Source: Actinomycetota bacterium
GTDB taxonomy: Bacteria; Actinomycetota; Geothermincolia; Geothermincolales; RBG-13-55-18
Direction of reading: 5' to 3'
NCBI GenBank assembly: GCA_013178005.1
Contig: JABLXL010000029.1
Location: 1-43,172 of the forward strand
DNA: 43,172 nt
Shown here: piece after piece, positions 8,795 through 43,172 of the stretch
How positions within the stretch are numbered: the first letter of the stretch is position 1
Layout: each line of letters starts with the position of its first letter
Program-made: the position numbers and the translations under genes
The notes under the pieces: generated by a model
What the model was told of the DNA's origin: nothing
Databases searched by the model: none
Seen by the model: the letters and a program-made list of their open reading frames with translations, nothing else

Positions 8795-9040
8795 GCACGC
8801 GATAGGGTCCCTGCATTGGAGTCGTCTTCCTAAATTGAATTAGTGTTCTTCGCCGCGAAGTGTGGACATTACGCTTCGCCTCTTATTTTCAACCTCATGC
8901 CTGGAGCTCAAACAACGGTTCTCTCAGCCAGAGGCGAGCCCGACCGTATTAAATACCCGCACTTCCGGGAGAAGAACCATAATCCTTAATATATCTGCCG
9001 TGGAGAAGGAGCAGATGCCTTGGCACGAGTGTTTGAGCCA

Positions 9041-9237
9041 GGGTAATCCTTAATATGTCCGCCTGCCGCACATCCGCTAGACACGCAGGAAAAGGCAGTC
9101 TTAAAACCGCTTGAATTGGCCGATGGCCAGCCCTGACCCCCAGGACACAGGGTAATCCTTAATATGTCCGCCTGCCGCACATCCGCTAGACACGCAAGAA
9201 AAGGCAGTCTTACAACCGCTTCAATTGGCCGATGGCC
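9041..9237. repeat. Two 88-bp direct repeats, 109 bp apart
   Basis: Copies at 9041-9128 and 9150-9237 begin with GGGTAATCCTTAATATG and end with ATTGGCCGATGGCC; they differ at about three bases. A further partial copy (ATAATCCTTAATATATCTG) starts near 8979. Between and after the copies the motif CTGACCCCCAGG recurs (9133 and about 9268). The rest of 8795-9251 holds no gene. Only two full copies and no short spacers, so this is not a CRISPR array. Confidence 0.8.
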
Positions 9238-37404: not shown

Positions 37405-40164
37405 ATGCGGGGCGGCAGAAGGAAAGCAAAACACGGCCGCGATTACGAACCCCCCGAGGACAAGAACCCCGGGGCGGAAAATGCCACCAGCGGCGGGGAA
37501 AATAAACTGCGGGACGCTTCCGCCATCGATAGGTACGCGCGATCGCTCATCGAGTACACCTTCGACCTCATCCTCCTCCTGGACAGGGAGGGAAAGGTGC
37601 TCTACGCTAGCCCATCCGCGAAGCGCCTGCTCGGATACGATCCAGACGCGGTCACGGGAAGGAGCGTTTTCGAATTCCTGCACCCCGACGACCTGCAGAA
37701 CGCAACGGGGTTCTACCGCTCGAGAGCGGGCTTACTTGGCTTCTCGCCGTACCTGGTGATAAGGGCCCGCCACCAGGACGGCTCCTGGCGCTGGTTCGAG
37801 GCCGTAGGCAATAACCTTCTCGGAGACCCCCTGGTGCGGGGCATCGTGGTCAGCGCCCGCGACATAACCGAGCACCGGCGCCTAGAGGAGGAGCTGGGAA
37901 AGAGCGAGGCGTATTTCCGCTATATAACCGAAAACACAAACGACATCATCTCCGTACTGGATTCAGAGGGCAAGCTGCGCTACGTCAGCCCCTCCATAAA
38001 GAGGATATCCGGTTACGAGCCCGGGGAGTTGCTCGGAAGGTCCCCCTTTGAACTCCTGCACCCGGAGGACATGGAGCACGTGATCGCAGTTTTCTCCCAG
38101 GGGCTTGAGGAAAACCTCCCCTCGGCGAGGGTGGAATACCGCTGGTTGCGCAAGGATGGAACCTGGCAGGTCTTCGAGGCCTTCGGAATAAACGCCCTTG
38201 ACAACCCGGCCATCGGAGGGATCATCGTGCACGCCCGCGATATCACGGAGAGCAAGCGCCTGGAGGAGGAGCTTCACCGCAGCGAGGCATATTTCCGATC
38301 CCTGGTAGAGGGCGCCTCGGATGTGATCGCCGTGCTCGACGCGGAGGGCAGGATCAGCTACGTGAGCCCGTCCGTCAAGCGCACGGCGGGTTATGAACCC
38401 GAAAAGCTGGCGGGAAAGAGCCTTTTCGATTTCGCCCACCCCGACGACATCGGGGACACCGCCCGGGCGCTCGCCTATGCCACCGGCCGGGAGGGGACCA
38501 CGGAATACGCGGAGATCAGGATAAGGCACGCGGACGGCACCTGGCATTACTACGAGGCCACCGCCAGCAACCTCCTGGAAGACGCCGCGATACGGGGCCT
38601 GGTGATACATGCCCGCGATATCACGGAACGCAGGAAATGGGAGGAGGCGCTCCGGGAATCCGAGGAGAAATACCGCCTCATATACGACTTCACGGGCGAG
38701 GCCATCTATACCTACGACAGGAACCTCACCCTCATCGGCGTCAACCGCAAGGCCTGCGAGCTCATCGGCTACAGCGAGGGGGAGCTACTGGGCAAGAACG
38801 TCCTGGAGCTGAACATCCTCCACCCGGACGACTACGAACGGGTCGCGGAGGATATCCAGCGCCTCCTCGCGGGGGAAGTGGTTAACGACGAGCTGCGTTT
38901 CATCAGAAAGGACGGGAGCGTGGCCGTAGGGGAAGTGACGGGGGCTCCTCTCTACGACAAGGATGGAAGCGTGGTCGCCTTCACCAACGTCGCCCATGAC
39001 GTCACGGAGCGCAAGCAGGAGGAATGGCGCCTCGACAAACTCAGGCTCTGCCTGCTCGGCCTGGGCCCCTCTCCCATGGACAACATCGCCAAGATCGTGG
39101 CCGTGGCTGGGGAGGTGCTGGGCGAAGACGCCCTTCGCTACTGCCGGTTGGAGAAAGGCGGCCTCTCCATCCTCTATCCCTCTGGAAAAGGGAAGAAGTG
39201 GGTAGAGCCCGGGGACGCCGCCACCTACTTGTGTTATGAGGCCATGCTCTCCGGCGCCGTGGAGCCGTGCGTGATCGAGAACCTGGAGGGATCCGCTTAC
39301 GCCCGGGATCCTGACGTGGCACGGGAGGGTTTCGGGTCCTTCCTGGGATATCCCGCGCTCCTGAGCGAAAAGGCCGTGGGAATGCTTTGCCTTTTCTCCA
39401 GGGGAACGGGGGGTTTCACTCCCGCGGACATGCATTTTATGGGGATGCTGGCCCGCGCGCTGACCATCGAGGAGGAGCGCCTCGTGCACCTCGAGGGCAT
39501 CAGGCACTTCGTGGACATCGCCTCTCACGAGCTGCGCACGCCCCTTTCCATCATCAAGGGTTATGCCGACGCCTTCCAGCAGGGCGACCTCGCGGGAATC
39601 GATGAAACCAGCCTGGAGAAGATGCGCATCATCAACGCCAAGGCGGACAAAATGGCAAAGATCATCAACGACCTCCTCGACCTCTCGCGCATAGAGAGGG
39701 GCATTTTCACCATCGAGAAACGCGAGACGCGGGTGACTCCCCTTCTCGAGAACGCGGTGCGCCAGATGCGCGACAGGGGCGCCGCCCACACGTTCGAGAT
39801 CCGCGTCGGCGAGGATATCGAGACCCATGCGCTGGATGAGGAAAAGATCTCCGATGCCCTTATCGTCCTCCTGGACAACGCGGTCAAGTACTCGCCCCCG
39901 TCCTCTCCCGTCCTACTGGAGGCAAAGCGCGAGGGCGGCGCCCTGCTCATCTCGGTGTATGACCGCGGCTTGGGAATCCCGCCAAGGGAACGCGAGGTCA
40001 TTTTCGAGCGCTTCCGCCAGTTGGAGGACGCCGCCCACCACTCCTCGGGCGGCCTGGGGCTGGGTTTGTATATCGCCAGGGAGATCGCGTGCGGGCACGG
40101 TGGGCGCATCTGGTGCGAGGCGCGGGAGGGGGGCGGCTCGGTCTTCAGGATCCTCATCCCGTGA
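37405..40164 (+). CDS. Sensor histidine kinase with four PAS domains
   Basis: 919 residues; GGAG lies six bases before the ATG. Four PAS domains of about 125 residues lie in tandem from about 35 to 535, each opening SLIEYTFDLILLLDREG, YITENTNDIISVLD, LVEGASDVIAVLD and LIYDFTGEAIYTYD, and ending in RDITE or HDVTE, the PAC junction. A GAF-like region follows (540-690). H708 in SHELRTP is the phosphorylation site, N825 the N-box, D853 the G1 box and SGGLGLGLYIA the G2 box. It has no membrane helix, so it is a soluble sensor, perhaps redox- or ligand-sensing. No response regulator is in the window. Its 3' end is duplicated just downstream. Confidence 0.9.
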   Translation: MRGGRRKAKHGRDYEPPEDKNPGAENATSGGENKLRDASAIDRYARSLIEYTFDLILLLDREGKVLYASPSAKRLLGYDPDAVTGRSVFEFLHPDDLQNATGFYRSRAGLLGFSPYLVIRARHQDGSWRWFEAVGNNLLGDPLVRGIVVSARDITEHRRLEEELGKSEAYFRYITENTNDIISVLDSEGKLRYVSPSIKRISGYEPGELLGRSPFELLHPEDMEHVIAVFSQGLEENLPSARVEYRWLRKDGTWQVFEAFGINALDNPAIGGIIVHARDITESKRLEEELHRSEAYFRSLVEGASDVIAVLDAEGRISYVSPSVKRTAGYEPEKLAGKSLFDFAHPDDIGDTARALAYATGREGTTEYAEIRIRHADGTWHYYEATASNLLEDAAIRGLVIHARDITERRKWEEALRESEEKYRLIYDFTGEAIYTYDRNLTLIGVNRKACELIGYSEGELLGKNVLELNILHPDDYERVAEDIQRLLAGEVVNDELRFIRKDGSVAVGEVTGAPLYDKDGSVVAFTNVAHDVTERKQEEWRLDKLRLCLLGLGPSPMDNIAKIVAVAGEVLGEDALRYCRLEKGGLSILYPSGKGKKWVEPGDAATYLCYEAMLSGAVEPCVIENLEGSAYARDPDVAREGFGSFLGYPALLSEKAVGMLCLFSRGTGGFTPADMHFMGMLARALTIEEERLVHLEGIRHFVDIASHELRTPLSIIKGYADAFQQGDLAGIDETSLEKMRIINAKADKMAKIINDLLDLSRIERGIFTIEKRETRVTPLLENAVRQMRDRGAAHTFEIRVGEDIETHALDEEKISDALIVLLDNAVKYSPPSSPVLLEAKREGGALLISVYDRGLGIPPREREVIFERFRQLEDAAHHSSGGLGLGLYIAREIACGHGGRIWCEAREGGGSVFRILIP

Positions 40165-40299
40165 TGAGGCGATAAGGGCCCCTTCCTCACTATCTATGCG
40201 CGGTGGATACGGTGGGCGCATCTGGTGCGAGGCGCGGGAGGGGGGCGGCTCGGTCTTCAGGATCCTCATCCCGTGATGGGGCGATAAGGGCCCCTTCCT
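40097..40299 (+). repeat. Tandem 91-bp duplication of the kinase gene's 3' end
   Basis: 40097-40187 and 40209-40299 differ at one base, with a period of 112 bp. The second copy keeps the reading frame (GGRIWCEAREGGGSVF and the stop), but has no start codon. It is a recent duplication or an assembly artefact. Confidence 0.85.
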
Positions 40300-40394: not shown

Positions 40395-42731
40395 CTACCT
40401 GCCCGTATAAGCCTCGGCGAAAAGCCACGCGGACGCCGGCGAGCTCACTCCCGCCGAGACGTGCCCTCCGCGAATGGGCTCCCTGCCGTCTGCTCCTCTT
40501 CCCAGGTCGAAATACATCGCCCGCTCGACCACCACCGGCAGGTTCGACATTATATCCAGCGCCACCTGGGACGGTCCGTCTTCCGCAGCCAGCGCCGCGT
40601 TCACGTCGATGGTCATCCTGGCATGCGGCCCCACGCGATAGGTCTGTGTGCGCGTGCCCTCGCCGGGGCCCAGCAGGAATCTGGCCTCTATCACCGCGGC
40701 CTCATCGTTGGGATTGAGAACCGCCACGTACTGGTGGATGCCGTCGAAAGCCGATCCCTCGGCGAACATCCACCTCCGGGACGGCTCCGTCACCCCGGGC
40801 GACACATGCCCGTCCTCCCATGCGCCGTTGTAGCGAAAATACATGGCCCTCTCGCAGGCGATGGGCACGTCGGAGCTCACGCGCACCGAGACGTCCGAGG
40901 CCGACGGGAAGAGATCGTCGACCCTTAAGGTACGACGCGTCCCCGGCGGCAGAATGATATCCTTCCGCACCCGCTCCCCCCGAGGCGTGTAGCACGTTAC
41001 GTCCGCGCTCGCCGGCGCGGTGCCGGGGTTGGCAAGCAGGACCCAGGCGTCGAAATCGTCGCCGACCCTCCCCTCGGCGAAATACCATTCCCTGGAAAGC
41101 GAGTTCACTCCCGGTTTCCCGTGACCCCCGTCGGCGGTGAAGGTGCCGTCCGGCGAGCGGTAGAGAAAATACATGGAGCGCTCCGCCACCACGGGGAGGT
41201 CCGTCTCCACCCTTGCCGAAACCGCCCCCTGCGTGTAGGCGTTGACGTGGTAGGTGCGGCGCGTGCCCGGCGGGACCTCCAGCTCGACCTCGGTGGGCTC
41301 TCCCTTCTCCGGCAGCAGCTCCAGGACGCCGCGAGCGGTGCCGGTCCCGAAGTTGGCGACGCAGATATACTCATGGAAGGGCTGCGAATCCGACGCGTAT
41401 CCCTCGGCGAAATACCACGAGGTGTGCGCCTCCGTCCGCCCGAAAGCGACGGACCCGCCATCCATCCAGCCGTGATAGCGGAAATACATGGGTCTCTCCG
41501 CCAGCAGCGGCGCGCCGTCCACGGAGCGCACCTCCACCGCGAGGTTCTTGTCCCGCAGGTAAGGGTTGGCGTTGAGGTCCAGGGTGATGCGGGACGCCGC
41601 CTCCACCTCGCGGTATATCTTCAGGTATTCGCCCGCTTCGTCGCGGAAGGTTATCTCGGCCCAGGTGGACAAAGATCCCGGGTTGGCGATGCTCAGAAAG
41701 GGGAAGAAGTTGTAGGAAGCGTCCTCTCCCGGGAACGTGTCCCGCTTGTCATGGGGAAAACAGGGCTCTCCCAGGTCGGTGTTGTCGCCGTCGGCGTTTT
41801 TATCGCCCGGCACCATACCGCATACCCCTTCCGCCGTCAGGAGGGGATCGCCGGCCCAGGCCGGCTGTCCCCACACGGCGCCGTTGCCGCTGCCGGGGAA
41901 ACGGTTCTTGCGGTAAACCATTCCCTCCGACCCCAGACGCTGGTGCCGCCCCTGGAGCAACTCGTACCCGCTTCCCGCCGCGTAGGATGCCGAGAGGTCG
42001 GGGACGGTGAGCTCGCCTATGGCCCGGTGGTGTTCGCGGAACAGGGATTCCAGGTAGGATGGCGTGGAGCCAACGTTGATGCTCGCGGTGAAGGAACGCG
42101 CCCCGGGCCCTTCCTGCAGGAAGGTGTAGGAGTACTCGTTCAGGCGCCTGAGCACCTCCTCTTTCGAAAGCAGCGCGGCCCCGTTTCCCATATCCGCGGC
42201 CTGCAAACCGTTCGCGAAGCAGGTATGGCGCATGACGACCATGGCGTTGGGGGCAAGCCTTATCTCGTCCCTCCAGTGGGCCCTGAAATCACCGAACTCC
42301 CGGGCCTCGTCCCGTCCCTCGGGCGTGTCCGTGCGAGATGCCCAGGCCGTATCCTGCGGAAGGCAGAACCCCCAGCGCTCGTCGTTGCCATGGCCGTAAT
42401 AGACCACGAGATTATACCTGCGGTCGGAGACATGGCGGTGCAACTGGTAATGCGGGCAGGGACTCAAAGACCCGTCCTCCTCGTAGGCATCCAGGATGTA
42501 GACCTCGAAACCGTACTTCCACAGCGTCTGCACCGTGGACTGGAGGTCGGGCACCGAGGTCGAGCGCAGGTTCTCCCCCGGCGCGAAGGCCATGACCAGG
42601 AGGGCCTTGGGGGCGGATCCCGCAGCGCTTGTCGTTTCCGCTAATCCCTTCCATGGCACCGGCAAGATAAGGCAGAGGAGCAGGAGCACGACCGCGCAGC
42701 GTATCACGGCCCCCGTCAGCGTGAACCTCAT
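40395..42731 (-). CDS. Secreted protein: caspase-like N-domain plus FAEG-repeat modules
   Basis: 778 residues from the ATG at 42731 (GGAGG upstream). A signal peptide ends near A31. The N-domain has LVVYYGHGND (H114) and MRHTCFANG (C171), a His-Cys arrangement like clostripain/gingipain-type peptidases. From about residue 340 come repeated modules of about 105 residues marked by W-Y/M-FAEG (about 439, 547, 652), a NPG segment and ERxMYFxY. The last repeat is cut off after WLFAEAYTGR. Such modules occur in large secreted proteins of uncultured actinobacteria. A role in surface binding and protein cleavage is inferred. No membrane anchor is seen. Confidence 0.75.
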   Translation of the reverse strand: MRFTLTGAVIRCAVVLLLLCLILPVPWKGLAETTSAAGSAPKALLVMAFAPGENLRSTSVPDLQSTVQTLWKYGFEVYILDAYEEDGSLSPCPHYQLHRHVSDRRYNLVVYYGHGNDERWGFCLPQDTAWASRTDTPEGRDEAREFGDFRAHWRDEIRLAPNAMVVMRHTCFANGLQAADMGNGAALLSKEEVLRRLNEYSYTFLQEGPGARSFTASINVGSTPSYLESLFREHHRAIGELTVPDLSASYAAGSGYELLQGRHQRLGSEGMVYRKNRFPGSGNGAVWGQPAWAGDPLLTAEGVCGMVPGDKNADGDNTDLGEPCFPHDKRDTFPGEDASYNFFPFLSIANPGSLSTWAEITFRDEAGEYLKIYREVEAASRITLDLNANPYLRDKNLAVEVRSVDGAPLLAERPMYFRYHGWMDGGSVAFGRTEAHTSWYFAEGYASDSQPFHEYICVANFGTGTARGVLELLPEKGEPTEVELEVPPGTRRTYHVNAYTQGAVSARVETDLPVVAERSMYFLYRSPDGTFTADGGHGKPGVNSLSREWYFAEGRVGDDFDAWVLLANPGTAPASADVTCYTPRGERVRKDIILPPGTRRTLRVDDLFPSASDVSVRVSSDVPIACERAMYFRYNGAWEDGHVSPGVTEPSRRWMFAEGSAFDGIHQYVAVLNPNDEAAVIEARFLLGPGEGTRTQTYRVGPHARMTIDVNAALAAEDGPSQVALDIMSNLPVVVERAMYFDLGRGADGREPIRGGHVSAGVSSPASAWLFAEAYTGR

Positions 42732-43054
42732 GCTTTTACCTCCGTTATCAAGCCTGGGGAAAGGGAGGTAGACCACTTCCCCCGCCGGAGCCCGGACACA
42801 TCGAGCGCCTCGCGCGCATCACCCTTGGGGCTCGGACGCCGCCATACTATATCAACGGACGCTGTTTGTATATGTTATTTGACCAACCAGCCGTAATCCC
42901 TCGCCGGGAAGGGCTGGAACAGGGACGGTGCCGGGAAGGCGCCGCCCGATGCCGGCGCTTGCCATCAAGGGTACGGGGATGACGATGGGTGTTTGCCTTG
43001 CTGCGCGGCGGAATGAAAAAGTAAAGATACGACCCTGCGTGCGGGTATGAACCC

Positions 43055-43142
43055 GGGTCGTGTCTTGACTTTTTTTGTTCCGGGGAGAGGTTGGGTGTTT
43101 GACTTGCGCTGCGGCGGAATGAAAAAGTAAAGATGCGACCCC
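43055..43142. repeat. REP-like palindromic element, with a tandem partner
   Basis: The left arm GGGTCGTGTCTTGACTTTTT (from 43055) and the right arm CGGAATGAAAAAGTAAAGAT (43115-43141 overall) pair as an imperfect hairpin. A half-copy of the right arm lies at 43009-43035, with TGGGTGTTTG at 42986 and 43092, a period of 106 bp. No gene is supported in 42732-43172. Confidence 0.7.
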
Positions 43143-43172
43143 TCGTCCGGGTATGCAACCGGGTATGAACCA

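Follow-up and report, generated by a model that had tools for sequence, protein, structure and literature searches.

The gene at positions 40395 to 42731 of the window (the whole 43,172-nucleotide stretch of contig JABLXL010000029.1 that was analysed) encodes a protein that we read, with a probability of about 65%, as a secreted clan CD cysteine peptidase that a sugar-binding tetrad anchors to the cell envelope. The computed basis of this reading consists of the fold of the head, a His-Cys dyad in the register of peptidase family C14, the invariance of that dyad, the fold of the tail modules and a tail shared with other proteins. Sec would export the 778-amino-acid enzyme, four ASRAH/DUF5719 modules acting as a tetrad would bind cell-wall or surface-layer glycans, and the bound tetrad would keep the enzyme on the cell surface, where the head would cut extracellular or envelope proteins via the H114–C171 dyad; calcium may play a role at a DxNxDGD loop, as its motif hints. 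Peptidase activity of the head is likely (about two in three), and we infer glycan binding and anchoring by the tail as well as the class of substrate. We see in the protein a new family of an established clan, fused to a module that is likewise known; the surprise is moderate.

The Gene and Its Product

The reading frame starts at an ATG (42731) and has no internal stop (Table 1). Orthologues with 57–80% identity over the full length were found in seven other genomes of the family and all of them end in ..YTGR or YTGN; full-length homologues in seven genomes, the lack of a stop and the common end together indicate that the frame is more than a product of chance. A frameshift behind the abrupt C-terminus was considered and was ruled out by the identical end in all orthologues.

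The strongest hydrophobic 19-residue segments of the entire protein begin at residues 5–8, as for a signal peptide, and residues 1–31 look like a Sec signal peptide, with no lipobox visible by eye in the signal region. This hydrophobic stretch fits the description of the protein as secreted in an earlier note on this DNA, which had also placed H114 in YYGHGND and C171 in RHTCFANG with a numbering that proved exact in the translation. Approximately 10 residues separate the signal peptide from the caspase-fold domain. An N-terminal propeptide is absent from the 778-amino-acid protein, and any latency of the enzyme would thus need another source.

TABLE 1. Features of the gene and its predicted product, in positions of the window.
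Feature	Residues	Positions	Strand	Basis
Whole gene, secreted caspase-fold protein with FAEG/DUF5719 tail	1-778	40395..42731	-	Frame reading, orthologues
GGAGG, ribosome-binding-site-like, 7 bases 5' of the ATG		42739..42743	-	Direct sequence reading
Putative signal peptide, cleavage at about GLA|ET by eye	1 to about 31	42639..42731	-	Hydrophobic stretch VIRCAVVLLLLCLIL
Caspase-fold (clan CD) domain	41-305	41817..42611	-	AlphaFold2, VIA-align
Predicted catalytic His (YYGHGND), end of third core strand	114	42390..42392	-	Invariant; aligns with C14 catalytic His
Predicted catalytic Cys (RHTCFANG), after fourth core strand	171	42219..42221	-	Invariant; aligns with C14 catalytic Cys
DxNxDGD calcium-binding-like loop at the head-tail junction, VPGDKNADGDNTDLGEP	307-323	41763..41813	-	Most residues invariant in 9 sequences
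Module 1, ASRAH-like beta-sandwich without FAEG motif	342-431	41439..41708	-	Model strands, alignment
Module 2, W439 YFAEG, H453-E-x-x-C457-x-x-N460 ASRT ligand signature	432-541	41109..41438	-	Model, Pfam ASRT
Module 3	542-646	40794..41108	-	Pfam DUF5719 at 561-621; 2iia, rmsd 1.5, 26% identity
Module 4	647-761	40449..40793	-	2ii8, rmsd 1.9, 24% identity
Lone C-terminal strand, SAWLFAEAYTGR	762-778	40398..40448	-	Model strand 768-775; YTGR/N end kept

Fold and Dyad of the Head

An AlphaFold2 model of residues 41–305, built on an alignment of 8 sequences only, reached a pLDDT of 80 and a pTM of 0.83, with low confidence for the loop after C171. Its core runs strand-helix-strand-helix-strand and continues with strands four and five. 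VIA-align was run over Foldseek's top 1000 PDB chains, and all 50 entries listed for the head belonged to clan CD (Z 8.7–11.3). Among these the best match was the SAVED-CHAT protease (8tl0; Z 11.3), followed by RgpB, gingipain R (4ief; Z 10.1, rmsd 3.6, 172 aligned residues), with legumain (Z 9.6), caspases (about 9), a metacaspase and the GPI transamidase (9.1) and MALT1 (8.7) also listed. The best rows for the full-length model were again clan CD, with Z up to 11.6. Foldseek on the full-length model also returned many long beta-protein matches with a query TM under 0.15, which were ignored. A clan CD caspase-like alpha/beta fold of the head is thus well supported by the models; structure prediction had been proposed in the earlier note as a check on this domain, and no non-peptidase fold emerged.

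In the caspase fold, the dyad consists of a His after strand 3 and a Cys after strand 4. In the head model H114 sits two residues past strand 3 and C171 three past strand 4, and both residues were invariant in every homologue covering them, that is, the orthologues, a paralogue of 41% identity and a relative of 24–29% identity (L020) from outside the family. An hhalign comparison of the family plus L020 with eight C14 domains gave an E-value of 2.4e-5, placing H114 on the catalytic His and C171 on the catalytic Cys, and its score of 28.3 was reached by none of 60 column shuffles (≤8.7). The His-Cys dyad in caspase register, predicted from sequence and model, is well supported, and the caspase-like dyad first recognized in the letters alone was borne out by the clan CD fold, the C14 register and the invariance.

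A clan CD fold could also serve as a binding protein, with a pseudoenzyme or adhesin as the head and the dyad kept for structure. The head has no family model in Pfam or NCBIfam, and the same FAEG tail is also carried by non-catalytic FG-GAP, TIG and beta-propeller heads, both of which would fit such a role; however, the two catalytic residues stay invariant at 24–29% identity, including in L020 with its different tail, and we regard this explanation as unlikely.

Place of the Head Among Clan CD Families

No peptidase model matched the protein in the Pfam and NCBIfam searches, and NCBIfam gave nothing at all. Matches over cut-off to C14 (PF00656) were absent from the protein, its relatives and its own genome; there was none to C11 (PF03415) for the protein, and none to C25 (PF01364), for which the best E-value was 0.15 in one homologue. 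Searches of PDB sequences, by the protein and by a domain profile, gave nothing credible for the head and only a weak match to TM1070 in one module. Lacking a match to any of these family models, the head looks by sequence like an unlisted clan CD family rather than a member of C11, C14 or C25.

The head might instead belong to C25 (gingipain) or C11 (clostripain) and have escaped the models, given that RgpB ranked second in VIA-align, that the weak C25 match in one homologue points the same way and that the local hhalign alignment to C25 beat 60 shuffles. The global alignment to C25 was, however, no better than shuffles, and the genome itself had no match to the C25, C11 or C14 models, though members were found elsewhere in the class and phylum. 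The likeness to RgpB is real, yet legumain and the caspases are tied with it within Z 1, and the sole C11 structure listed scored Z 5.9. Membership of a known family is thus improbable. The gingipain likeness suggested in the earlier note holds in structure but not as a family-model match, and its clostripain link found no C11 match; of the models that it had named for an HMM search, DUF5719 matched (50.1 bits) and the C11, C14 and C25 family models did not.

Compared with clan CD enzymes (C14, C25 gingipain, C13 legumain, CHAT), the protein has the same fold, strand order and placement of His and Cys, whereas it differs in having no family-level sequence match, in being a predicted secreted protein without a propeptide and in ending in ASRAH modules. 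If this assignment is right, an unlisted clan CD family is added to the exported proteins of bacteria.

Architecture of the Tail

In the full-length model the tail consists of four beta-sandwich modules and a lone last strand, the first module being without the FAEG motif, which occurs three times (441, 551, 656) together with one FAEA (771). The count of four to five FAEG modules made from the sequence was therefore close. Its suggestion of DUF5719-like repeats also agreed with Pfam, in which DUF5719 (PF18986) matched with an E-value of 2.9e-13, above its curated cut-off of 26.2 bits, and ASRT (PF07100) with 31.1 bits (E 2.6e-7; curated cut-off 25). VIA-align of the full-length model matched TM1070 (1nc7) to the tail with Z 7.5 and an rmsd of 2.3. 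Two hallmarks of the ASRAH superfamily were present, with an opening Trp at W439, W549, W654 and W769 and an Asn closing strand 2 at N350, N460, N568 and N673. Only module 2 of the four carries an ASRT-like H/C ligand signature (HEYICVAN, 453–460), and the combination of both H and C is rare, occurring in 3 of the 115 modules scored in the genome.

The ASRAH superfamily was defined by De Souza, Iyer and Aravind, who predicted sugar binding and described the ligand-contact signature SHExxCxxN of the ASRT-like family (PMC2739507). Its secreted forms occur as dyads or tetrads, and the tetrads, fused to secreted N-acetylmuramoyl-L-alanine amidases, are predicted binders of peptidoglycan sugars (PMC2739507). 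The tail shares with ASRT, TM1070 and DUF5719 the beta-sandwich, the opening Trp, the strand-2 Asn, the four copies and export, but has FAEG after the Trp and the H/C signature in module 2 only; and where those tetrads are on amidases, this one is on a caspase fold.

The DxNxDGD loop between head and tail (residues 310–319) was invariant in an alignment of 9 sequences, and its motif suggests calcium binding.

The Tail as a Class-Wide Module

DUF5719 was detected in all 30 genomes of the class that were searched, with 16 to 70 matches each. The source genome (G000) had 70 matches, whose positions place them in about 45 open frames; these counts of FAEG proteins rest on profile matches and inspected regions (L061–L100), with 35 of the ~45 frames recovered and inspected. 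The heads on FAEG tails in this genome included subtilases S8 (three), L,D-transpeptidases YkuD (two), SpoIID (two), CAP, Amidase_3, NlpC/P60 with an S-layer (SLH) domain and a glycoside hydrolase, as well as the non-catalytic FG-GAP, TIG and beta-propeller domains. Some other FAEG proteins likewise end in a lone strand (..WYFAEGYTGG). The architecture, for which the earlier note knew of no characterised counterpart, is consequently not an isolated oddity, as dozens of exported proteins across the class have an FAEG tail. The same tail probably holds these on the cell too.

No paper naming DUF5719 was found in a literature search. A module that was predicted in 2009 to bind sugars, in a few architectures, appears here as a standard tail on the exported proteins of Candidatus Geothermincolia. 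The broader point is the shared tail, which offers one testable prediction, glycan binding, for many functionally uncharacterised proteins of an uncultured class.

A common tail could also point to an enzyme that acts on its bearers. A secreted clan CD enzyme outside the catalogued families that matures or transamidates the class's own FAEG-tailed surface proteome is an improbable reading, and so is a transamidase or sortase with a caspase fold that would process FAEG-tailed proteins or attach them, as PorU does with T9SS cargo. The structural matches include RgpB and the GPI transamidase, and tens of proteins of the class share one C-terminal module, as T9SS cargo does (PMC4560394). Four genomes without a homologue of the gene (G006, G007, G009, G010) nevertheless show 26–51 DUF5719 matches; FAEG proteins are abundant there, so they can do without the enzyme, and this argues against a sortase role. 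In addition, the enzyme itself bears an FAEG tail, and no cleavage motif was seen in FAEG tails. A peptidase anchored by its tail is the reading that we keep.

In genome G020, from a different family of the class, an FAEG-module gene (G020:C41:185645-185947) has a true C25 peptidase gene (L102) beside it.

Relatives and Distribution of the Gene

The source genome comprises 3.6 Mb in 98 contigs. A scan of genome contigs gave a single locus, in Candidatus Solincola daggyaiensis; a genome of the same genus as the source carries an identical copy of the gene, and the NCBI taxonomy places Candidatus Solincola within Candidatus Geothermincolia, Actinomycetota, which gives a name to the uncultured lineage that had been surmised from the sequence. 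The gene is patchy in the family, being missing from the four near-complete genomes named above (96–99% complete). The 41% identical paralogue (L002, contig 56 of G000) has the same caspase-fold domain and dyad but carries a separate FAEG array and lacks the AYTGR end.

The only relative found outside the family was L020 (G166; E 1.3e-8), in another family of the phylum. It shares the caspase-fold domain with its dyad, whereas a copper amine oxidase N-terminal domain takes the place of the FAEG modules; the head, in other words, swaps tails. A search with an enlarged profile around G166 gave no further relatives. A weak match from the phylum search (L021; E 6e-4) was dropped due to an internal stop and overlap with unrelated genes. 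No relatives were found in the plasmids and viral contigs searched, and there is thus no sign of mobility.

Genomic Context

Within the genus, the gene is convergent to genes for a histidine kinase, a small secreted protein, a GNAT acetyltransferase and two AddAB-like nuclease/helicase proteins; more distantly related genera retain the AddAB-like portion of the arrangement. The neighbourhood was considered as a functional link and set aside: because the gene faces its neighbours, the conserved order was read as shared position only and not as an operon. The neighbours (AddAB-like, GNAT, histidine kinase) hint at no substrate.

Several repeats were observed in the window. A 112-base tandem duplication (98%) at 40097–40299 spans the histidine kinase gene's 3' end, so that roughly the final 22 codons recur past the stop; this may be genuine or an artefact of assembly. 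Another tandem duplication, comparable in length (109 bases, 96%), lies at 9039–9237. Two 86-base copies (86%) occur near the end of the contig, on the upstream side of the gene (42974–43058 and 43081–43164).
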